From: Burkholderia plantarii
Lineage (GTDB): Bacteria > Pseudomonadota > Gammaproteobacteria > Burkholderiales > Burkholderiaceae
DNA length: 64,000 bases
Direction of reading: 5' to 3'
NCBI RefSeq assembly: GCF_001411805.1
Contig: NZ_CP007212.1
Span: 1,860,001 to 1,924,000 of the forward strand
This document shows, one piece after another, positions 3,396 through 55,246 of the stretch; the first letter of the stretch is position 1; the number at the start of each line of letters is the position of its first letter. The position numbers were made by a program, and so were the translations under genes. Under the pieces are notes generated by a model. The model worked only from the letters and a program-made list of their open reading frames with translations. It had not been told where the DNA came from and ran no database searches.

Positions 3396-3420
3396 CGTTA
3401 CGTAACGTTACCCGGGTAAC
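3396..3420. promoter_or_regulatory. Two abutting palindromes, probable activator binding site
   Basis: A perfect 12-bp palindrome CGTTACGTAACG (3396-3407) is followed, sharing one base, by a perfect 14-bp palindrome GTTACCCGGGTAAC (3407-3420). Both are built on the half-site GTTAC. The same CGTTACG/CGTAACG half-sites occur in only one other intergenic region of the window (41450-41495), again upstream of a sigma-54-type promoter. The centre lies about 120 bp upstream of the inferred start of the 3501-3517 promoter, a usual distance for a sigma-54 enhancer site. Confidence 0.6.
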
Positions 3421-3500
3421 GCGCGGGCCGCGCGGGCGTGTGCTGCCGGGTGCATGATTGTTAACTCAAATAAATCAAAGACTTACCGGAGAATTTTTCG

Positions 3501-3517
3501 CTGGCACGGAAGCTGCT
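3501..3517 (+). promoter_or_regulatory. Sigma-54 promoter
   Basis: The sequence CTGGCACGGAAGCTGCT has a perfect -24 element (TGGCACG), exactly 10 bp between the GG and GC dinucleotides, and a -12 element CTGC, one base off the TTGC consensus. The predicted start is near 3528. No comparable sigma-70 promoter was found in the AT-rich stretch 3455-3500. Confidence 0.65.
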
Positions 3518-3527
3518 GATAGGGATA

Positions 3528-3740
3528 CCGAACGATGTTGCCCGGCGCGGCGCGCGTGACGCCACAGGCCTGTCACCGCCGATGCCGACGCTACCGGTCA
3601 CCGCTTTGCGCGGCGCGGACGATTCCGCGCCCGACCCGCCTGATGGCCCGTGCCGCGCATGGGCCTCGATGGCCCCGTCGCCTATCCTCGTAGGGCGACG
3701 GTTTTGCCCGCGCTTCGAAGGAAGCGCGGGCAATTTTTTT
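3528..3740 (+). ncRNA. Candidate small RNA, about 210 nt
   Basis: A stretch lying between a sigma-54 promoter and a strong terminator, with no convincing gene. The last 70 bases form two consecutive stems: CCGTCGCC (3675-3682) with GGCGACGG (3694-3701), then the 13-bp terminator stem. A 52-codon open frame from 3535 has no ribosome site and Arg-rich composition, so I do not call it a protein. I do not recognise 6S RNA, RNase P RNA or tmRNA signatures. An alternative is a regulated leader of the monooxygenase gene at 3819, but the terminator lies 79 bp before that start. The transcript is inferred from promoter plus terminator only. Confidence 0.5.
3704..3740 (+). terminator. Strong rho-independent terminator of the candidate small RNA
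   Basis: A 13-bp perfect stem (3704-3716 with 3721-3733), a GAAG tetraloop and seven T (3734-3740). It is one of the strongest terminators in the window, yet no protein gene ends just upstream. Confidence 0.85.
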
Positions 3741-3818: not shown

Positions 3819-4109
3819 ATGTCAGAAGTCGCCGTCGTCGCCACGATCATCGCCAAGCCGGGCATGGAGGACAAGCTGTTCGAGCAGCTCGGGACGATCA
3901 TCGGGCCGACCCGGGTCGAGCAGGGGGCGCTGCAATACGACCTGCACCGTGATCGTGACGATCTGCGGCGTTTCGTGTTCTTCGAGCGTTGGGAGAGTGA
4001 CGCGGCGCTGGTCGCGCACGGGCAGGCGGCCCATATGCGCGCCTACAAGCAGAATGCCGCCGAGTGGATCGAAAGCGCGGAAGTCCGCGTGATGCATCGG
4101 GTGGCCTGA
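3819..4109 (+). CDS. Antibiotic biosynthesis monooxygenase (ABM) domain protein
   Basis: A 96-residue single-domain protein of the ABM/YgiN type, a dimeric ferredoxin-like fold used by quinol monooxygenases and related small oxygenases. The family pattern is clear: VVATIIAKPGMEDKLFEQL at the start, the central QYDLHRD and FFERWESDAAL segments, and the HMRAYKQ helix. The ATG at 3819 is chosen because AGGAG lies seven bases upstream; an upstream in-frame extension would run through the small-RNA terminator. The substrate cannot be read from sequence. The gene is monocistronic and convergent with the small gene at 4203-4460. Confidence 0.85.
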   Translation: MSEVAVVATIIAKPGMEDKLFEQLGTIIGPTRVEQGALQYDLHRDRDDLRRFVFFERWESDAALVAHGQAAHMRAYKQNAAEWIESAEVRVMHRVA

Positions 4110-13236: not shown

Positions 13237-13264
13237 TTGCGTTTGAGTTAAAAAACGCTATAAT
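13237..13264 (+). promoter_or_regulatory. Strong sigma-70 promoter of the rimP-nusA-infB operon
   Basis: TTGCGT (13237-13242), a 16-bp AT-rich spacer and a perfect TATAAT (13259-13264). The start is expected near 13271. Confidence 0.75.
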
Positions 13265-13270
13265 CGCCGA

Positions 13271-13351
13271 GTCGCTGGTCGTACAGGTTCCTTGTGCGGC
13301 TCAGGTGCGACCACCGGAGTAAGAAGATGGGCGTTTCGCCCATTTTTTTTT
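13271..13351 (+). promoter_or_regulatory. rimP-operon leader RNA with a built-in terminator (attenuator)
   Basis: Starting about seven bases after the TATAAT box, the leader folds into a stem GGTCGTAC (13277-13284) with GTGCGACC (13305-13312). It then forms an intrinsic terminator: ATGGGCG (13327-13333), a TTT loop, CGCCCAT (13337-13343) and an unbroken run of nine T. The terminator lies before, not after, the operon. Read-through must therefore be controlled if rimP, nusA and infB are to be made. NusA itself promotes pausing and termination, so feedback is plausible. A rimP-leader RNA family has been described in other bacteria; I cannot tell whether this belongs to it. Confidence 0.65.
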
Positions 13352-27446: not shown

Positions 27447-27550
27447 CCTTCCAAGCAAGACTTGATTCGCGCAATCCGCTAAACGGTCAGGCCGTGTCGC
27501 GGAAGGTTGAGTAACCCGCTATTTCTCGAGAAGCTCGAAGAAAGGTGAGC
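27447..27550 (+). promoter_or_regulatory. Structured sucA leader, probable sucA RNA motif
   Basis: The 110 bases before sucA hold a long-range pairing CCTTCC (27447-27452) with GGAAGG (27501-27506) that closes a domain containing the small hairpin ACGG-TCAGG-CCGT. Next comes a hairpin TTTCTCGAG/CTCGAAGAAA, whose 3' arm covers the start of the ribosome site AGAAAGG. A sucA RNA motif, conserved in Burkholderiales and always upstream of sucA, has been described as a possible metabolite-sensing element. Position and a ribosome-site-masking hairpin fit, but I have not checked against the published consensus. A promoter probably lies near 27392-27425 (TTGTGA, then GATATGCT). Confidence 0.6.
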
Positions 27551-27555
27551 GTAAA

Positions 27556-35325: not shown

Positions 35326-35787
35326 TTATTGCTGGCGGACCCAGGTCTGCGACCGGCCGAGCAGCGACACGCCGATATAGCCGCGCACGATCAGCTTCTG
35401 GCCGCCGTCCTCGAGCGTCATCTTGCAGCGGTACACCTTGCCGTTTTCCGGGTCGAGGATGTTGCCGCCATCCCAGTGATCACCATCGGCCTTCATGGCC
35501 TTGATGATCGTCATGCCCTTGATCAGCTGATCCTTCCGTTCGTCGGTGCAGGCGGTGCAGCGGCGCTCGGGCGTGTCGTTGTCGCCGAGGCCCTGCTTGA
35601 CGACGCCCGACAGTTCACCGTTGCCGTCCTGGGAAATCTGCACGAGCGCCTTCGGCTTGCCGGTGTGGTCGTCGATGGTCTGCCAGGTGCCGATCGGGCT
35701 GTCGGCCTGGGCGAAGGCGCCCAGCGCGGACATCAGCAAGGTGCCGCCGACGGCGAGCCGGCGCAGGCGGGAATTGAAGCGGGTCAT
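35326..35787 (-). CDS. DUF2147 periplasmic protein
   Basis: A 153-residue exported protein. Its signal peptide ends at AFAQA, and the DUF2147 domain follows (SPIGTWQTIDDHTGKPKALVQI, then the ERRCTACTDERKDQ cysteine pair and the C-terminal LIVRGYIGVSLLGRSQTW). The domain is a small lipocalin-like or beta-barrel fold seen in many Proteobacteria, with no fixed function. The start at 35787 is set by AAGGAGG upstream. It is monocistronic and lies downstream of the TpsB operon on the same strand, 168 bp after it. Confidence 0.85.
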   Translation of the reverse strand: MTRFNSRLRRLAVGGTLLMSALGAFAQADSPIGTWQTIDDHTGKPKALVQISQDGNGELSGVVKQGLGDNDTPERRCTACTDERKDQLIKGMTIIKAMKADGDHWDGGNILDPENGKVYRCKMTLEDGGQKLIVRGYIGVSLLGRSQTWVRQQ

Positions 35788-35955
35788 TGTCTTCCTCCTT
35801 GAATGCATCGTCTTTTTGTGCAAATTCTCATGCGGATACCCGGCCTCGCAAGGCGCCGGAAACCGTCATCGAGAATACGTGAAAGCCGTCGCCGCGTTTG
35901 ATAGAGGTGCCTCTAATCGAGGTGGGCGCCCGCGGCGCGCGGACGCCCGCCGGGG

Positions 35956-37638
35956 TCAGTTCAACTGATAGGAGAACGATGCATTGACGCGCGGGCTGCG
36001 CGAGGCGCTTTCGATCGGCGCGTCGCCGATCGGCTTCGCGACCGAGACGTCGATGTTGTAGTGCTGGCCGTCCGACACGCGCACGCCGAGGCCGACCGAC
36101 GACAGCCGGTTCGGCAGCGGCGTGCCGGCATGCAGGTAGACGCGCGCCATGTCGTAGGCGATGTAAGGCGTGATCGACTTCAGATAGGCGAAGCCGAGCG
36201 CGAACGAGCGGTTGATCTCGGCGGACATGCCCCAGCCCGAATCGCCCGAGGTTTCGCCGGGCTCGTAGCCGAGCGCGAAGCGCTGCGCGCCGAACGCGAT
36301 CTGCTCGGTGGTGGGCAGCGAGACCGGGCTGAACTGGCCCGTCAGCTGCAGCGTCGTGCCGATCTTGAACGGCCACTGGTTGGTTTGCACGAGCGTCGCG
36401 CCGGTGCGCACGAAGGTGATCGAGGCCGGGTTGGTCTGCGTCGAGTTGGGGATGTTGGTGTCGACCGACTTCGACGCGCCGAGGATGTCGAACGCCTTCG
36501 CGACGTTGAAGCTGACCTTGGTGACCGAGGTCGGCCGCACGTTGGTGAAATCCATCTGCGCCTGCAGCACGCGCACCTGCGAGCGCAGACCGATGAACTG
36601 GCCGCCGATCTGGTTCTGGTACTGGTCCTCGCTGTGCGAGGCGTAGCCGGACACCGTCGCGAGCAGGCTGCGCTGGTTGTTCAGCAGGATCGGGTACGAC
36701 GCGGAGACGCCGAGCTTGTCGTTGACCACGGTGCGCTTCACGTAGGACGGCAGCCCCGGGTTGTCACTCGGGTTGCCGCGATAATGGCTCGCGTCGACGC
36801 GTGCCGTGAGGCCGTTGCTGCCGATCGGCACCGAGCCGCTCGCGGCCACGTAGGTCACGTTGTTCGGGCCTTTCGGCGCGAGCGCCGACAGGCTCAACTG
36901 CTCGCCGAGCGAGGTCAGCCCGCTTTCGGTCACGGTGAACAGCCCCTGCACGCCGGGGTTGCTGGTGGCGATGCCGCTGCTCACGTTGATCGGCTTGCGC
37001 TTGACGTCGAGCGACAGGGTGGTCGCGCCGTCGGTGTTCTGCGGTGGCGGCACGTTGGCCTTCACGGTGATGCCGGGCAGCAGGCCGAAGGTGTTGACGT
37101 AGCGCTCGAACGTGGCGCGCCGCAGCGGCCGGTCGGCGGTGATGTGCGCGGCCACCGCGCGCAGCTTCGATTCCATCGCGCCGGGGTTGCCGGTGATCTG
37201 CACGTCGGACACGAAGCCCTCGACCACCGTGATCCTGACCACGCCGTCCTCGAAGGTCTGCGCCGGCACGAACGCGAACGACAGCGCATAGCCCTTGTCC
37301 TGGTAGAGCTTGGTCACGCCGTTCGCGGTTTCGATCAGTTGTCCTATCGTGATGTCCTTGCCGACGAGCGGCGTGAAGCGCGCCGACACTTCCTCGAACG
37401 GAATCGACTTGACGCCTTCGATGCGGATCGTGGCGGGGGTGAGGTGGCGGGCGAGCAGCTGTTGCACCTGCTGCGCCTGCGGTTCGACCTGGACCGTGAC
37501 GGTCGAGCGCTGGGGCGGGTTGACCGGCGGCAGCGATTCGAGCGGGTTGCCGGCGGGGCGGGTCTGCGCCTGGGCGGGAACGGCGGCTGTAGCGGCGAGC
37601 GCGCACAGCAACGTCCAAACCTGTTTCTGGGTTCGCAT
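35956..37638 (-). CDS. TpsB/ShlB-FhaC-HecB-type outer-membrane transporter
   Basis: A 560-residue outer-membrane protein of the two-partner secretion type. It has a signal peptide (cleavage near residue 24), a linker, and two POTRA domains (about 70-145 and 150-215, with GYALSFAFVPAQTFEDGVV and VVEGFVSDVQITG). A 16-strand barrel (about 220-560) ends in an aromatic-poor FSYQLN. The L6 region reads ALGYEPGE followed by SGDSGW, where canonical members have VRGY/F: the signature Arg is replaced by Leu. No filamentous-haemagglutinin-type partner is nearby. It is instead the last gene of an operon with two collagen-like lipoproteins, 134 bp after the second, separated by stable hairpins. Those lipoproteins are the only obvious cargo candidates; that is inference. 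Confidence 0.88.
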   Translation of the reverse strand: MRTQKQVWTLLCALAATAAVPAQAQTRPAGNPLESLPPVNPPQRSTVTVQVEPQAQQVQQLLARHLTPATIRIEGVKSIPFEEVSARFTPLVGKDITIGQLIETANGVTKLYQDKGYALSFAFVPAQTFEDGVVRITVVEGFVSDVQITGNPGAMESKLRAVAAHITADRPLRRATFERYVNTFGLLPGITVKANVPPPQNTDGATTLSLDVKRKPINVSSGIATSNPGVQGLFTVTESGLTSLGEQLSLSALAPKGPNNVTYVAASGSVPIGSNGLTARVDASHYRGNPSDNPGLPSYVKRTVVNDKLGVSASYPILLNNQRSLLATVSGYASHSEDQYQNQIGGQFIGLRSQVRVLQAQMDFTNVRPTSVTKVSFNVAKAFDILGASKSVDTNIPNSTQTNPASITFVRTGATLVQTNQWPFKIGTTLQLTGQFSPVSLPTTEQIAFGAQRFALGYEPGETSGDSGWGMSAEINRSFALGFAYLKSITPYIAYDMARVYLHAGTPLPNRLSSVGLGVRVSDGQHYNIDVSVAKPIGDAPIESASRSPRVNASFSYQLN

Positions 37639-37772: not shown

Positions 37773-39137
37773 TTACTTCCCGACGCTGCCCAGCGTGCCC
37801 AGCAATCCGGTGACCGGTGCGAGCAGGCCCGTCGAGCTGCCGGTGCCCGAGTTCGCCGTCGAGGTGACCGAGCTGACCAGCGAGGTGACGGGCGAGAGCA
37901 GCGAGCCCGCTCCCGAGCCGGACGTCGTCCCGCCCGCGGCACCGCCGAGCGTGCCGGTGACAGTATTGAGCAAACCGGTGGCGGGCGCGAGCGGATTCGT
38001 CCCGCCTGTGCCGGTGGCGCCACTGGTGGCCGAACCGAGCGCGCCCGTGACGGTCGAGACGAGCCCCGTGACCGGCGCGAGCGGGCCGCTTGCGCCGCCG
38101 GCGGCGCCGCCGAGCGAGCCCGTCAGCGAACCGATCAGGCCGGTGAGCGGGTTGCTCGCGCCGCTGCCCGACGACGAGCCGTTGGCGACCGTCACGGTCG
38201 AGCTGCCGACCAGGCTCGTGATCAGGCCGGCCACCGGCTGCGCGCCGTTCGGGCCGGATGCGTCGACCAGGCCGCCCGCGTTGGTGACGGTGTTGCCGAG
38301 CGAGGTCACGAGCTTGCCCGCGTCGCCGACCAGCGGTTGCGACGAGGTGCTGCCGATCTGCGTGCCGGCCGAGGCGACCGCGCCGCCCAGCTGCTGCAGC
38401 AGGCCCGAGACCGGCGCGCCGAGCCCGCTGGCCGAGCCGACTGTCTGGGTGGTCTGGCCGACCGTCGTGACGATCGGCGTGATGGCCGAGCTGAGCGGCT
38501 GCGTGACGGCCTGGACCTGGCTCGACGACAGCACGTTGCCGAGCGTCATGCCGCCGGCTTCCACGCCGTTGGCGGCGGTGTTCAGCAGCGTGCCGACCGG
38601 CGTGGTGATCGGCGCCAGCGCCGAGAGCTGGCCGGTGCCGAGCGAATTGACGGTCTGGCCGAGGCCGGCGACCGTGGTGCCGGCCGCGCTGACCACGCCG
38701 CCGAGCCCGGCGACGGTGGTGCCGACCGGATCGGACGTGGTGCCGGTCTGGCCGAGGCCGCTGCTGAGCGCGTTGGCGGCCGCGTTGACGACCGTGCCGA
38801 CGCTCGACACGGTGCTGCCGAGGCCTTGCGTGACGCCGCTGCCGACGCCGGGGATCGTTACCGAGCCGACGGTGTTGCCGAGATCGGTGGCGGTCTGCCC
38901 GGCGGTGGTCAGCACGCCGGTGGTGCCGCTGCTCGACGACGAGCTGGTGGTGCCGCTGGTGCCGGTCGTTTGCGGGACATTGCCGCCGCCGCTGGTGCCG
39001 GCCTGCGTCGTCATATCGCTGCCGCCGCAGGCGGCCAGCGCGGACAGGGTGGCTGCCGCCGCCACGGTCAGCGTGAGCCGCCACGCACGCAACGCCGGCG
39101 AGGATGACGGGGACGAGATCGATTGAATCGGTTTCAT
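37773..39137 (-). CDS. Repeat-rich lipoprotein (collagen-like protein family), shorter paralogue
   Basis: A 454-residue lipoprotein. The signal ends in the lipobox LAAC (Cys37) followed by GGS, so outer-membrane sorting is expected. After a Ser/Thr/Gly linker (40-80) come weakly repeated segments of alternating Gly and Val/Leu (GLGGVVSAAGTTVAGLGQTV type). In the C-terminal third there are units of the form LAPVTGLVSTVTGALG. The composition is almost free of charged and aromatic residues. It is clearly paralogous to the 39181-41244 protein, sharing order and motifs such as GLGAPV near the middle, but lacks the long GTS run. It lies 43 bp downstream of that gene with AGGAG before the ATG. Confidence 0.8.
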   Translation of the reverse strand: MKPIQSISSPSSSPALRAWRLTLTVAAAATLSALAACGGSDMTTQAGTSGGGNVPQTTGTSGTTSSSSSSGTTGVLTTAGQTATDLGNTVGSVTIPGVGSGVTQGLGSTVSSVGTVVNAAANALSSGLGQTGTTSDPVGTTVAGLGGVVSAAGTTVAGLGQTVNSLGTGQLSALAPITTPVGTLLNTAANGVEAGGMTLGNVLSSSQVQAVTQPLSSAITPIVTTVGQTTQTVGSASGLGAPVSGLLQQLGGAVASAGTQIGSTSSQPLVGDAGKLVTSLGNTVTNAGGLVDASGPNGAQPVAGLITSLVGSSTVTVANGSSSGSGASNPLTGLIGSLTGSLGGAAGGASGPLAPVTGLVSTVTGALGSATSGATGTGGTNPLAPATGLLNTVTGTLGGAAGGTTSGSGAGSLLSPVTSLVSSVTSTANSGTGSSTGLLAPVTGLLGTLGSVGK

Positions 39138-39180: not shown

Positions 39181-41244
39181 TTACTTCTTGCCGCCGCCGA
39201 GCAGCCCGCCGACCAGCGAGGTCACGGGTGCCAGCAGGCCGCCCGAACCGCTCGCCGCGGCGCCGTTGCTCGACCCGCTCAGGCCGGTCGCGACCGTGGT
39301 CGCGCCGGACGTGGCGCCGCTGGTGGCCCCCGCCGCCGCGCCGCCCGCCGCGCCCGCCACGCCGCTCAGCAGGCCGGTGACCGGCGCCAGCAGGCCGCCG
39401 GCGCTGCCGCCCGCCGCGCCGCCGCCCGCCACGCCGCCGAGCGCGCCGGTGACCGACGAGACGAGGCCCGTGACCGGCGCCAGCGCGCCGCCGCCGGTGG
39501 TGCCGCCGGCCGCGCCGAGCGCGCCGGTGACCGACGAGACGAGACCCGTGACCGGCGCCAGCGCGCCGCCGCCGGTGGTGCCGCCGGCCGCGCCGAGCGC
39601 GCCGGTGACCGACGAGACGAGACCCGTGACCGGCGCCAGCGCGCCGCCGCCGGTGGTGCCGCCGGCCGCGCCGAGCGCGCCGGTGACCGACGAGACGAGA
39701 CCCGTGACCGGCGCCAGCGCGCCGCCGCCGGTGGTGCCGCCGGCCGCGCCGAGCGCGCCGGTGACCGACGAGACGAGACCCGTGACCGGCGCCAGGAGGC
39801 CGCCCGCGGCGCCGCCAGTGGCCCCGCCCGTGGCGCCGCCGAGCGCGCCGGTGACGGACGAGACGAGACCCGTGACCGGTGCCAGCAGACCGCTCGCGCC
39901 GCCGCCGGTGGCCCCGCCAGTGGCGCCGCCGAGCGCGCCGGTGACGGACGAGACGAGGCCCGTGACCGGTGCCAGCAGGCCGCTCGCGCCGCCGCCGGCG
40001 GTGGTGCCGCCCAGGCTGCCGAGCGTGCCGGTGACATTGGAGACGAGGCCCGTGATCGGGGCGAGCGGGCCGCTGCCGCCGCTGGTGCCGCCGAGACCGC
40101 CGAGCGTGTTGGTCAGGCCGCCCACCAGCGAGGTGACCGGGGCCAGCGGGTTGCCGCCGCTGCCGCCCGTGAGCAGGCCGCCGAGCGAGGCGACCGTGTT
40201 GCCGGTGGCCGACACCGTCGAGCCGAGGCCCGCGGTGACCGGGTTGCCGCCGCCCGTCGAGGCGATCAGCGAGCCGGCCTGATTCAGGCCGCCGCCGATC
40301 GTGCCGAGCAGCGTGTTGACCGGCGCGCCCAGGCCGGTGACGTTGCCGACCGTCTGCGTGGTGTTCGCGACCACCGAGGTGATCGGCGTGATCGCCGAGC
40401 TGACGGTCTGGGTGATCTGCTGCACGGGGCCGGTGCTCAGCACGTTGCCGAGCGTCGTGCCGCCGTTGGCCACCGTGCTGCCGAGCGTCGAGACCAGGCC
40501 GCCGACCGTCGAGGTGACCGGGGCGAGCGGCGAAAGCGGGCCGCTGCCGAGGCTCGTCACGAGGTTGCCGGTGCCGGTCACGGCGTTGCCGAGTTGCGAC
40601 ACCACGTTGCCGGTCGAGCCGAGCGTGGTGCCGAGCGGGTTGGAGGTGGCGCCGAGCTGGCCGAGGCCGCCCGCGAGGCCATTGCCGAGCGCGCTGACCG
40701 CGCCGCCGACGCTGCCCACCACGCTGCCGAGCGCCTGGGTCGGCGCGCTGCCGAGACCGGGCACCGACTGGCTGCCGATCACGGTGCCGAGGCCCGACAC
40801 GGTGGTACCGACGCTCGACACGACGTTGCTGGTGCTGGCGACCACGCTGCCCACCGCGTTGCTCGAACTCGTGCCGCTGGTGCCCGAGGTACCGCTGGTG
40901 CCGGATGTGCCGCTGGTGCCCGACGTGCCGCTGGTGCCCGAGGTACCACTGGTACCGGACGTGCCGCTGGTGCCCGAGGTACCGCTGGTACCGGACGTGC
41001 CGCTGGTGCCCGAGGTACCGCTGGTGCCGGACGTGCCGCTGGTGCCCGAGGTACCGCTGGTGCCCGAACTCGTGCCTTGCGGCGTGTTCGTGCCGGACGT
41101 GCCGGAAGAACCCGAACTGGAGCCGCCGGTGCCCTGGCTAAGCGAGCCGGAGCCGCCGCAGGCGGAGAGGGAAAGCATGGCTGCCACGGTGGCGGCGATC
41201 AGCGTCGTCCGGAGCATGCCTTGGGCAATCGGTTGGGTATCCAT
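39181..41244 (-). CDS. Collagen-like repeat lipoprotein, larger paralogue
   Basis: A 687-residue lipoprotein: lipobox LSAC (Cys29) followed by GGS, then a Ser/Gly linker and about 20 uninterrupted Gly-Thr-Ser triplets (residues about 58-124). Such Gly-X-Y runs without proline are known in Burkholderia collagen-like (Bucl) proteins. The middle part matches the 37773-39137 paralogue. The C-terminal third is built of APVTGLVSSVTGALG units, four of them near-identical 26-residue repeats. The start at 41244 has GAGGA upstream; a longer frame would begin inside the promoter. It is the first gene of the operon lipoprotein-lipoprotein-TpsB, behind a sigma-54 promoter. Likely a surface-exposed structural or adhesive protein, by inference. 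Confidence 0.82.
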   Translation of the reverse strand: MDTQPIAQGMLRTTLIAATVAAMLSLSACGGSGSLSQGTGGSSSGSSGTSGTNTPQGTSSGTSGTSGTSGTSGTSGTSGTSGTSGTSGTSGTSGTSGTSGTSGTSGTSGTSGTSGTSGTSGTSGTSSSNAVGSVVASTSNVVSSVGTTVSGLGTVIGSQSVPGLGSAPTQALGSVVGSVGGAVSALGNGLAGGLGQLGATSNPLGTTLGSTGNVVSQLGNAVTGTGNLVTSLGSGPLSPLAPVTSTVGGLVSTLGSTVANGGTTLGNVLSTGPVQQITQTVSSAITPITSVVANTTQTVGNVTGLGAPVNTLLGTIGGGLNQAGSLIASTGGGNPVTAGLGSTVSATGNTVASLGGLLTGGSGGNPLAPVTSLVGGLTNTLGGLGGTSGGSGPLAPITGLVSNVTGTLGSLGGTTAGGGASGLLAPVTGLVSSVTGALGGATGGATGGGASGLLAPVTGLVSSVTGALGGATGGATGGAAGGLLAPVTGLVSSVTGALGAAGGTTGGGALAPVTGLVSSVTGALGAAGGTTGGGALAPVTGLVSSVTGALGAAGGTTGGGALAPVTGLVSSVTGALGAAGGTTGGGALAPVTGLVSSVTGALGGVAGGGAAGGSAGGLLAPVTGLLSGVAGAAGGAAAGATSGATSGATTVATGLSGSSNGAAASGSGGLLAPVTSLVGGLLGGGKK
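39451..39762 (-). repeat. Four near-identical 78-bp tandem repeats
   Basis: Units begin at 39451, 39529, 39607 and 39685; they differ by about one base. Each encodes 26 residues (APVTGLVSSVTGALG plus a Gly/Thr spacer). Degenerate copies extend on both sides (about 39363-40100). The unit length keeps the frame, so copy-number change would alter only protein length. Confidence 0.9.
40872..41070 (-). repeat. Gly-Thr-Ser triplet repeat DNA
   Basis: A 9-bp-based repeat with a higher-order period of 18 bp encodes about 20 consecutive GTS triplets of the larger collagen-like lipoprotein. Confidence 0.88.
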
Positions 41245-41294
41245 GTCGTCCTCGCAGTGGTGTTGTGTGGTCTGTGTTACCGCGAGCAACACTC

Positions 41295-41310
41295 TGCAAC
41301 ACTCATGCCA
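41295..41310 (-). promoter_or_regulatory. Sigma-54 promoter of the collagen-like/TpsB operon
   Basis: On the minus strand TGGCATGAGTGTTGCA has a -24 element one base off consensus, exactly 10 bp between GG and GC, and a perfect TTGCA -12 element. The predicted start is near 41284, 40 nt before the ATG at 41244. Repeats resembling enhancer sites lie 165-210 bp upstream. Confidence 0.7.
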
Positions 41311-41449
41311 CGCGATTCGAACGGCACGCCGCGACCGCGGTACGACAATTCGCGCCGGCCGCAAAGCCTTGCGCCGTCTCGGTTTAACGATGGTTGAAAA
41401 CGATTCTCACGCAGATTGAAATGCCGAAGCGCGGGGCGATATTCGAGGG

Positions 41450-41495
41450 ACGTAACGTAACGTCACAGGATTTCCGTTACGCACGTCGCGTAACG
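41450..41495. promoter_or_regulatory. Cluster of CGTTACG/CGTAACG repeats, probable enhancer site
   Basis: A tandem CGTAACGTAACG (41451-41462) is followed by an inverted repeat of 8-bp arms, CGTTACGC (41475-41482) and GCGTAACG (41488-41495), with a 5-bp spacer. The half-sites are the same as at 3396-3420. The position is 165-210 bp upstream of the inferred start of the minus-strand sigma-54 promoter. Confidence 0.6.
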
Positions 41496-41895
41496 TGGGC
41501 GGCATGAAAACGGTTCACTCGAACGATTGTTTTACTGATGGATTAGACAGGTAGATCTAACCTATCGTTAGCCCTTATGGGGGTCCCACCGAAAGATAGT
41601 GAAAATGAGGCCGCGCGCCGAGCTGTCGCTCAGGAAATGCATAAAAAAAGTTGAAAAGAAAAGCTGTTCGGCTTTAAGATTTGTCGGTGCGTGTTCCTGC
41701 CGCACCACAAACCCGAAGTGGAGGTGCCTATCGAAACGATTGCAAGATTGTTAAATGGCATCGAAATAGGTAAGAGCTCCTGAAAAAACGAGCTATAAAG
41801 AAATGGCCGGAGCCGGACGTCGAAGCCGGTGACGGTTGGACGGCCAATATGCCAGGCGCATCAGGCCCACGAAACTCAAGGCACGAGGGATTACC
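41496..41895. other. Gene-free stretch upstream of flp
   Basis: AT-rich, with no protein gene. It holds a CTAAC-CTATC-GTTAG inverted repeat (about 41559-41573), a candidate sigma-70 promoter at 41651-41680, and a leader of about 200 nt with a GGTGCG/CGCACC hairpin (41686-41706). A weak sigma-54-like TGGCA element at 41756 lacks the invariant GC at -12. Confidence 0.5.
41651..41680 (+). promoter_or_regulatory. Candidate sigma-70 promoter of the flp-tad operon
   Basis: TTGAAA (41651-41656) and TAAGAT (41675-41680) are 18 bp apart, just after an A-rich stretch. Confidence 0.4.
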
Positions 41896-42090
41896 ATGAA
41901 CACACTCATCAATCGCTTCCTCCGGGAAGAAGACGGGGTTACCGCTGTCGAATACGGCCTCATCGCGGGCCTGATGGCAGTGGCACTCGTCACGGCCGTC
42001 GGCGTCCTGTCGGGCGGCATTACCAACGCATTCAGCTATATCGCCAACAAGCTCACCGGGCTGGGCGCCGCCGGCGGCTCGGGCAGCTAA
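41896..42090 (+). CDS. flp: Flp-family type IVb pilin
   Basis: The major subunit of the Flp/Tad pilus. At 64 residues it has the short class IVb pilin form: a charged leader MNTLINRFLREEDG, cleavage after that Gly, then the hallmark Glu-Tyr pair in VTAVEYGLIAGLMAVALV, which forms the hydrophobic assembly helix, and a Gly-rich tail. GAGGGA precedes the ATG. It is the first gene of the locus, separated from tadV by a hairpin that may favour high pilin expression. Confidence 0.96.
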   Translation: MNTLINRFLREEDGVTAVEYGLIAGLMAVALVTAVGVLSGGITNAFSYIANKLTGLGAAGGSGS

Positions 42091-53854: not shown

Positions 53855-55246
53855 ATGAGAAATACACCTGCAATCGAGGGACTCGATCTGTACGTCTGGG
53901 AAGGCAAGGCGGACATCGTCGACCGCGTCGCGCGCTGCATGGCCAGCTTCGACGTCGAGGTGATCCGTGCCGACAACGTCGCGCTGTCGCCCGAGCGGGC
54001 CGCCGCGCGGCCGTCGCTCGCGATCATCAGCATCAGCATGATCGAGAGCGGCGCGGCCTTCCTGTCGGAGTGGCAGGCCAACATCGGCATGCCGGTGGTG
54101 TGGGTCGGCGCCGCGCGCGGCGGTGCGGACGCCGCCTCGTATCCGCCCGAGTACTCTCACATCCTGCCGCTCGACTTCACCTGTGCGGAACTGCGCGGCC
54201 TGGTGACGAAGCTGGTCGCGCAGTTGCGCGCGCACGCCGCGAAGACTTCGGCGCCGGCCATGCTGGTCGCCCATTCCGAGCCGATGCAGGCGCTCCTGCA
54301 GGAGGTGGACACGTTCGCCGACTGCGATACCAACGTGCTGCTGCATGGCGAGACCGGCGTGGGCAAGGAGCGCATCGCCCAGCTGCTGCACGAGAAGCAC
54401 TCGCGCTACCGGCACGGCGAGTTCGTGCCGGTCAACTGCGGCGCGATTCCGGACGGCCTGTTCGAGTCGCTGTTCTTCGGCCACGCGAAGGGCTCGTTCA
54501 CGGGCGCGGTGGTCGCGCACAAGGGCTACTTCGAACAGGCGGCCGGCGGCACGCTGTTCCTCGACGAGGTCGGCGATCTGCCGCTCTACCAGCAGGTGAA
54601 GCTGCTGCGCGTGCTGGAGGACGGCACGGTGTTGCGGGTCGGCGCGAGCGCGCCGCTCAAGGTCGATTTCCGGCTCGTCGCGGCCAGCAACAAGAAGCTG
54701 CCGCAGCTCGTGAAGGAGGGCACGTTCCGCGCCGACCTTTACTATCGGCTTGCGGTGATCGAACTCGGCATCCCGTCGCTGGAGGAGCGCGGTGCCGTCG
54801 ACAAGATCGCGCTGTTCAAGTCGTTCGTCGCCGAGGTGGTGGGCGACGACCGGCTCGGCACGCTGCCGGACCTGCCGTACTGGCTCGCCGACGCGGTGGC
54901 CGACACCTACTTCCCCGGCAACGTGCGCGAGCTGCGCAATCTGGCCGAGCGGGTCGGCGTGACGGTGCGCCAGACCGGGGCCTGGGACGCCGCGCGGCTG
55001 CAGCGGCTGATCTCCCACGCGCGCGCCGTGCAGCCGGTGCCGGCCGAAAGCGCGGCCGAGGTCTACGTCGACCGCAGCAAGTGGGACATGACCGAACGCA
55101 ATCGCGTGATCGCGGCACTTGACGCAAACGGTTGGCGCCGCCAGGATACCGCGCAGCATCTCGGTATCAGTCGCAAGGTCTTGTGGGAAAAGATGCGCAA
55201 GTACCAGATTTTCGACGAAGAGCCCGAGGCGCGCGAAAGTGAGTGA
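53855..55246 (+). CDS. Sigma-54-dependent activator of the Tad locus
   Basis: A bacterial enhancer-binding protein of 463 residues. Residues 1-130 look like a degenerate receiver domain without a usable phospho-acceptor aspartate. The AAA+ domain (about 145-385) has Walker A GETGVGKE (near 166), the sigma-54 contact loop GSFTGA (near 213; consensus GAFTGA) and Walker B LFLDEVGD (near 235). The arginine-finger region FRADLYYRL and the [13 protein letters not shown] motif also lie in it. A Fis-type helix-turn-helix closes the protein (about 410-452, [19 protein letters not shown]). It lies 19 bp after tadG. By architecture it resembles FleQ/VpsR-type activators. It is the only sigma-54 activator in the window and thus the prime candidate to act at the repeat clusters 3396-3420 and 41450-41495. 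Confidence 0.93.

Follow-up and report, generated by a model that had tools for sequence, protein, structure and literature searches.

The intergenic region between an operon for collagen-like lipoproteins and the divergent flp pilin gene carries a perfect sigma-54 promoter box with a compact array of four CGTWACG sites upstream of it. Both elements and the distance between them are conserved, and the array co-occurs with a gene for the enhancer-binding protein GtrR, whose AAA+ motifs are intact. From these observations we consider it probable that GtrR, together with RpoN, switches on the collagen-like/TpsB operon from the array, in an order that would be pilus first and adhesin second.

Results

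Adhesin operon and its promoter region

The locus was identified in a stretch of DNA of 64 kb, referred to here as the window. The features of the putative operon, of the region upstream of it and of the divergent pilus cluster are the following:

35326..35823, minus strand, small protein predicted to be exported, encoded by the last gene of the putative operon (from translation; start codon uncertain)
35956..37638, minus strand, TpsB-like outer-membrane transporter with POTRA_2 and ShlB domains
37773..39137, minus strand, collagen-like lipoprotein gene 2, Collagen_mid PF15984
39181..41244, minus strand, collagen-like lipoprotein gene 1, 687 aa, Pfam Collagen_mid PF15984, ATG at 41244
41249..41255, minus strand, Shine-Dalgarno region GCGAGGA of collagen-like gene 1
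41295..41310, minus strand, sigma-54 -24/-12 promoter box TGGCATGAGTGTTGCA (TGGCATG-AGTG-TTGCA), perfect consensus match
41451..41495, minus strand, upstream array of four CGTWACG sites, CGTTACG-N7-CGTAACG-N12-CGTTACG overlapping CGTTACG, read towards the operon
41651..41679, plus strand, putative sigma-70-like -35/-10 of flp (genus consensus TTGGAA-N17-TATAGA; here TTGAAA-N17-TTAAGA)
41896..42090, plus strand, flp pilin gene, start of the divergent Tad/Flp cluster carrying gtrR
53855..55246, plus strand, gtrR ortholog, predicted sigma-54 enhancer-binding protein, 463 aa, with Walker A/B, GSFTGA and a Fis-type HTH

Lipoproteins 1 and 2 match Collagen_mid with 238.4 and 221.6 bits, respectively (curated cut-off, 31.1), and the ATG of gene 2 lies 43 bp beyond the stop codon of gene 1. 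The same order of two Collagen_mid lipoproteins, a transporter and a small protein next to a divergent flp has been described for BCAL1524-BCAL1520 beside the Flp cluster BCAL1525-1537 (PMC10224339), and by this gene order the 35326..35823 protein appears to occupy the position of BCAL1520. In J2315, BCAL1524-1520 and BCAL1525-1537 were named as two divergent operons (PMC2753556). This literature differs in scope from the present analysis: in the portions available to us it covers the genes, an effect of CepR and induction by host membranes (PMC10224339, PMC2753556, PMC7970998), and the words "sigma" and "promoter" are absent from the main text of PMC10224339.

The operon box has the -24 GG and the -12 GC at 10-bp spacing, fits TGGCAYRN4TTGCW, and is the sole match without mismatches to this pattern in the window. 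When up to two mismatches were allowed, 15 matches were found in the window against 20.6 expected, so it is the perfect operon box alone that stands out. The 8.08-Mb genome contains 16 perfect boxes, the operon box included, compared with 2 for the reversed control pattern, and the mean count of perfect boxes in 5000 dinucleotide shuffles of the 652-bp intergenic region was 0.0004 per shuffle. The gap between the box and the ATG at 41244 is 50 bp, in agreement with the initial annotation of this DNA, which had placed a box with GG-N10-GC spacing 50-65 bp before the start codon. Judging from the position of the box, transcription of the operon would start at about 41284.

The array is formed by CGTAACG copies at 41451-41457, 41456-41462 and 41489-41495 on the plus strand and at 41475-41481 on the minus strand. 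Four GTWAC within 60 bp were not reproduced in any of 5000 dinucleotide shuffles of the intergenic region. Across the whole window the count of the CGTAACG 7-mer is unexceptional (9 versus 5.9 expected), and the array is unusual through its clustering rather than through its window-wide frequency. It is located about 145-185 bp upstream of the operon box, its GTWAC sites being 146-184 bp from the box start, the range of sigma-54 activator sites being taken as roughly 80-200 bp. Measured from the predicted start the distance is 167-211 bp, which bears out the 165-210 bp originally given for the repeats. A perfect box with four upstream sites confirms the layout proposed at the outset, a sigma-54 promoter with remote repeats. 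The description of 41295..41495 as one element needs a small correction: both components were verified, but they are two separate elements with weakly conserved DNA between them.

Clusters of at least three GTWAC occur at only two places in the window, upstream of the operon and upstream of a candidate small RNA described below, and both are accompanied by a correctly placed box matching 11 of 12 positions (the operon box has T where the consensus used for this score has C). Throughout the genome, CGTWACG-N12-CGTWACG with at most one mismatch was found at five distinct places (reversed control, 10 per strand), namely the operon with no mismatch, the candidate small RNA with one mismatch, and three others. 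Two of these three have no 10/12 box within 400 bp, and the third has a box on the wrong side. Among the eight of the 16 strict boxes of the genome that were examined, a site cluster was present at the operon box only. A Blast comparison of the intergenic DNA with plasmids gave no match.

Conservation within the genus

The box and the array core, CGTAACG-N12-CGTTACG, were found in 65/65 genomes of the genus sample (this one included; loci L009-L073, all with an intergenic match and all inspected). They are 159-175 bp apart, start to start, and the distance is 160 bp in 42 of the 65. All 65 genomes have at least three sites at fixed spacing, and 58 have four. The pattern TGG[CT]A[CT]GN4TTGCA was likewise matched in every genome, in the TGGCA form in 64 and in the TGGTA form in one. 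In the genus alignment, columns that are at least 97% identical account for 75% of the box and 51% of the array; the values are 4% for the gap between box and array, 41% for a block at 41535-41610, and 11% for the DNA from this block to flp. The initial annotation had staked its reading on conservation of the repeats in relatives that keep the operon, and this was found in 65/65 genomes of the genus and in 30/30 loci elsewhere.

The block at 41535-41610, upstream of flp, is strongly conserved and includes the imperfect palindrome GGTTAGA...TCTAATCC. A different regulator of the flp promoter probably binds there.

GtrR and its co-occurrence with the array

Sequence comparison identifies the product of 53855-55246, the proposed activator, as orthologous to B. 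cenocepacia GtrR (BCAL1536), the partner of RpfR. As in BCAL1536, the protein is 463 aa long, with a start that matches the published gtrR forward primer (PMC8174753), and the gene likewise lies within the Flp cluster. GtrR and the gene order together would place the genome in Burkholderia or very close to it. The window protein matches PDB 7vbs/7vbw over its full length; the entry ends like the published reverse primer, and from this C-terminus and the primer 7vbs/7vbw would be GtrR of B. cenocepacia. A close relative of GtrR already has a solved structure. The protein has a Sigma54_activat AAA+ domain with Walker A/B and a GAFTGA-type loop, followed by a C-terminal Fis-type HTH (PF02954 at 412-450). 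It shares the AAA+ domain with this type of loop and the Fis HTH with enhancer-binding proteins of the FleQ/NtrC class, and differs from them in residues 1-137, which have no Pfam match at E 0.001. In 31/31 sequences from seven genera the loop is GSFTGA or GAFTGA and the 12 residues of the recognition helix are invariant. To our knowledge, CGTWACG as a putative site of GtrR would be peculiar to it among enhancer-binding proteins of the FleQ/NtrC class.

Published work presents GtrR (BCAL1536) as an RpfR partner that is active at high BDSF and low c-di-GMP and acts on cepI (PMC12838280, PMC11139211), and GtrR failed to bind the Bcal3178 promoter (PMC8174753). Unlike the present analysis, the available portions of these reports (PMC12838280, PMC11139211, PMC8174753) name no sigma-54 promoter, binding motif or collagen-like target. 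A comparable arrangement in the same genus is that of berA, a biofilm gene switched by the enhancer-binding protein BerB and RpoN, although both activator and target are other than GtrR and the operon (PMC5552954).

Co-occurrence of GtrR and the array was scored in 80 genomes of genera g20 and g10 with a previously unexamined GtrR status and already known core counts. They comprised all 44 remaining g20 genomes and 36 of the 51 remaining g10 genomes, every core-positive one included. The strict array core was found in 24/37 genomes with GtrR and in 0/43 without it (g20, 17/24 versus 0/20; g10, 7/13 versus 0/23). The Fisher p of 2e-11 for this co-occurrence ignores the choice of the g10 genomes and their shared ancestry, and owing to the latter it is no true probability. 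Genomic position was checked for only part of the 24 strict-core matches. Nine of the 13 GtrR-positive genomes without the strict core have a variant array, a box and a collagen-like ORF, the contigs of three end early, and the remaining one has no operon and no cluster. In the first set of genomes, 2/11 lacking GtrR (G324 and G112) had one strict core match somewhere; in G324 the reversed control pattern scored 1 as well. Collagen_mid was found in 0/11 GtrR-lacking genomes versus 6/7 GtrR-positive ones. The co-occurrence with the array supports the predicted role of the 53855-55246 product as the activator, as had been suggested initially. GtrR and the operon were mostly lost together, which supports the tie between them and leaves GtrR not fully separable from a linked factor.

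A linked factor would imply that the sigma-54 promoter and its enhancer array are genuine, that another enhancer-binding protein, e.g., BerB, binds the sites, and that GtrR is a mere neighbor. The joint loss of GtrR and operon fits this explanation too, and there are candidates for such a protein, as 20 enhancer-binding proteins were predicted in B. cenocepacia according to the available part of PMC5295037. Genome G112, which lacks GtrR, keeps two GTWAC sites and an 11/12 box at the candidate small RNA, and the best GtrR match among its activators resembles GtrR in the recognition helix. Against it stand the strict core counts (0/43 without GtrR versus 24/37 with it), the GtrR-lacking genome G149, in which the 3' end of the small RNA remains but sites and box are both missing there, and the invariance of the GtrR helix across seven genera in which the GTWAC motif is constant. 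We consider this explanation unlikely and favor GtrR as the protein that would act at the array. The G112 protein (L238) is a receiver-domain enhancer-binding protein whose recognition helix, ISRKSLWEKMRR, resembles that of GtrR.

The bclACB promoter, a further point of comparison as bclACB is reportedly a target of GtrR, weighs against the favored reading. The 506-bp probe region was found intact in one relative by means of the published primers, and the same region was taken from five more. These six regions (L155-L160) contain no CGTWACG and no box matching at least 9/12 positions, and a single GTWAC is present in one relative. If bclACB is directly targeted, the contact made by GtrR there must differ. 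The bclACB operon has been described as BDSF-controlled (PMC8174753).

The array in other genera

GtrR was searched for in 49 genomes hand-picked from about 400, 38 of which have an ortholog. For all 33 of these that fall outside the genus, in ten other genera, the stretch upstream of gtrR was inspected. A GTWAC cluster with a sigma-54 box was present in 30 of the 33 loci, representing nine other genera, at 11.7-14.3 kb from GtrR and with the box 130-220 bp from the sites. These 30 loci are exactly those with an ORF matching the collagen-like domains of the window; the remaining three have none. In 26 of the 30 loci the cluster was not reproduced in any of 1000 shuffles, and in the other four it appeared in 1-8 of 1000. 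The spacing of the sites is 14-15, 19 and 5 in most loci outside the genus, with tighter clusters in g3, g5, g11 and g24. When the loci were read individually, spacing variants were seen, such as N8 in g20 and flipped sites in g16. A strict three-site pattern with N7 had matched in 6/80 genomes, as if the array were absent outside the genus; this idea was rejected as an artefact of the fixed spacing.

Some boxes outside the genus match at 9-10/12 positions only. Those of g15 (TGGTATN5TTGCA) and the 10/12 matches in g16 and g3 were included on visual inspection or a loose score, at a stage when the sites were already known, and they are therefore weaker evidence. In g11 the collagen-like ORF starts about 340 bp after the box, a gap in which another start or a short gene may intervene. 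Both g24 genomes (L148, L149) have a single cluster between two outward-facing perfect boxes, each of which precedes a collagen-like lipoprotein gene, the two genes forming a divergent pair. In g3 (L150, L151, L153) collagen-like ORFs are likewise found on both strands. Two of the three remaining loci, those of G377 and G172, have neither flp nor a collagen-like ORF in the stretch inspected; the third is that of G070.

Since the array is flanked by both start codons and gtrR belongs to the flp cluster, the sites could serve the divergent flp promoter, instead of or besides the operon. Genome G070 (L152, genus g7) is in line with this possibility: it has GtrR and flp, and a 38-bp segment some 300 bp ahead of flp retains three GTWAC, with no box near the sites and no Collagen_mid gene. 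The presence of these sites without the operon indicates that they are not strictly operon-bound. However, G292, which has flp and GtrR and no collagen-like ORF in the stretch inspected, has no cluster of three. In addition, the g24 boxes that flank the cluster both face collagen-like genes, and flp in the genus has a conserved sigma-70-like promoter and its own conserved block upstream. A function of the array at flp is on these grounds quite improbable. The G070 sites are about 12.5 kb from GtrR and may be a relic or may have a role at flp.

It is hardly credible that the box is fortuitous, with a housekeeping promoter driving the operon and the array binding an ordinary repressor or activator, because, in spite of the 15 other perfect boxes in the genome, this one is kept in 65/65 genomes of the genus and accompanied by equivalents at 30 loci of nine other genera, and 0.0004 boxes are expected per shuffled intergenic region.

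A candidate small RNA with a similar promoter

The second GTWAC cluster of the window belongs to a region located 38 kb from the operon promoter, with these features:

3396..3421, plus strand, second GTWAC array, upstream of the candidate small RNA
3502..3517, plus strand, putative sigma-54 box TGGCACGGAAGCTGCT of the candidate small RNA
3528..3740, plus strand, candidate small RNA of about 210 nt (5' end deduced from the box; terminator and T run taken as marking the 3' end)
3675-3701, plus strand, hairpin of the small RNA
3706-3731, plus strand, terminator stem of the small RNA

The region, flanked by what we take to be a BamC-like gene and an ABM-domain gene, combines a promoter-like box, a conserved and covarying structure and an intrinsic terminator, with the hairpin and terminator within 3667-3740. 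The hairpin region was matched in 65/65 genomes of the genus, and its loop, TATCCTCGTA, shows one change in 1/26 sequences. Sites and box were present in 30/30 of the best 30 of the 65 genus genomes, with boxes matching at 10 or 11/12 positions. In other genera the 3' part was found in g20 (11/11), g10 (5/5 with GtrR), g25 (2/2) and g16 (1/2); it was unmatched in g3, g5, g7, g15 and g24, and g11 gave one weak match in two genomes (E 0.006). Boxes and GTWAC sites lie upstream of it in g20, g10 and g25, with g10 boxes matching at 9-10/12 positions and often one or two sites, and in g16 two sites are found 162-167 bp before a 10/12 box.

Covariation was assessed in an alignment of 26 distinct sequences out of 54 loci. 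In the terminator stem 5/20 pairs are changed on both sides, with 23 cells versus 7.3 in shuffles; one of the five covariation measures, that of further pair types, was no higher than in shuffles. No Rfam 15 family reached its gathering threshold over the candidate small RNA. The ABM-domain gene starts at 3820, and 3528-3740 may for this reason be its leader RNA instead. Elsewhere in the window, Rfam matches were obtained for Bp1_162, a Burkholderia sRNA, at 13252-13350 on the minus strand and for the sucA motif at 27469-27551 on the plus strand.

At its Shine-Dalgarno region the adhesin mRNA is complementary to the loop UCCUCGUA over 8 bp, including one G-U pair, and a pairing of the loop with GCGAGGA at 41249..41255 is offered as speculation. 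The sequence YRCGAGGA is present at the Shine-Dalgarno region of gene 1 in 64/65 genomes of the genus, and T[AG]CGAGGG in 6/11 g20 loci. CGAGGA precedes 2/97 control ORFs of the window, a count not strictly comparable with the former, since the control covered the 25 bases before unverified ORFs and the test the 94 bases after the box. The 65 genomes are not independent, and loops of this kind suit many ribosome sites.

Discussion

The mechanism that we propose is the following. RpoN-polymerase would sit as a closed complex at the -24/-12 box. GtrR, encoded about 12.4 kb away in the Tad/Flp cluster, would bind the CGTWACG array as an oligomer and loop to the box, where ATP hydrolysis would open the promoter. 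Drawing on the published B. cenocepacia work, GtrR would be gated by RpfR in response to BDSF and c-di-GMP. Given that gtrR lies within the pilus cluster, expression of the pilus would also yield the adhesin operon's activator, hence the order of pilus first and adhesin second. The use of RpoN, the binding of GtrR, the looping and the order of expression are all deduced from DNA and protein sequences.

A second promoter of the same build would drive the candidate small RNA. We tentatively put forward, as a possibility of rather low probability and far more doubtful than the mechanism itself, a compact GtrR/RpoN regulon with the operon and the small RNA as its two clear members, perhaps a sigma-54-driven incoherent feed-forward loop that limits adhesin output. 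If this regulon exists as such, the effects of GtrR on promoters without the array would be indirect or would need other contacts.

The initial annotation regarded control of this kind over collagen-like proteins beside a Tad locus as undescribed, and this has to be narrowed. The activator, GtrR, is known, and collagen-like genes beside flp have been published (PMC10224339). The literature searched, part of which was available in excerpt, mentions for this locus neither a sigma-54 promoter nor a GtrR site nor a small RNA, and an earlier description may exist. The main text of the start-site paper PMC4603805, in the form available, does not name these genes.

Other published observations concern both operons. 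In a cepR mutant, one listed gene of BCAL1524-1520 (BCAL1520) and five of BCAL1525-1537 fall (PMC2753556), and after 30 min of contact with host membrane vesicles genes of both operons rise, including BCAL1520, 1523 and 1524 (PMC7970998). A cascade from the pilus cluster through GtrR to the adhesin would fit this joint induction and would explain in broad terms the common response of pilus and collagen-like genes to host-membrane contact. The array would provide a defined DNA site for GtrR, a regulator linked to quorum sensing and c-di-GMP for which no motif was found in the portions of the literature searched. Such a site would link GtrR to adhesins of a class for which the same literature describes no promoter, and it points to a previously unnoticed candidate small RNA that may be under the same kind of switch.
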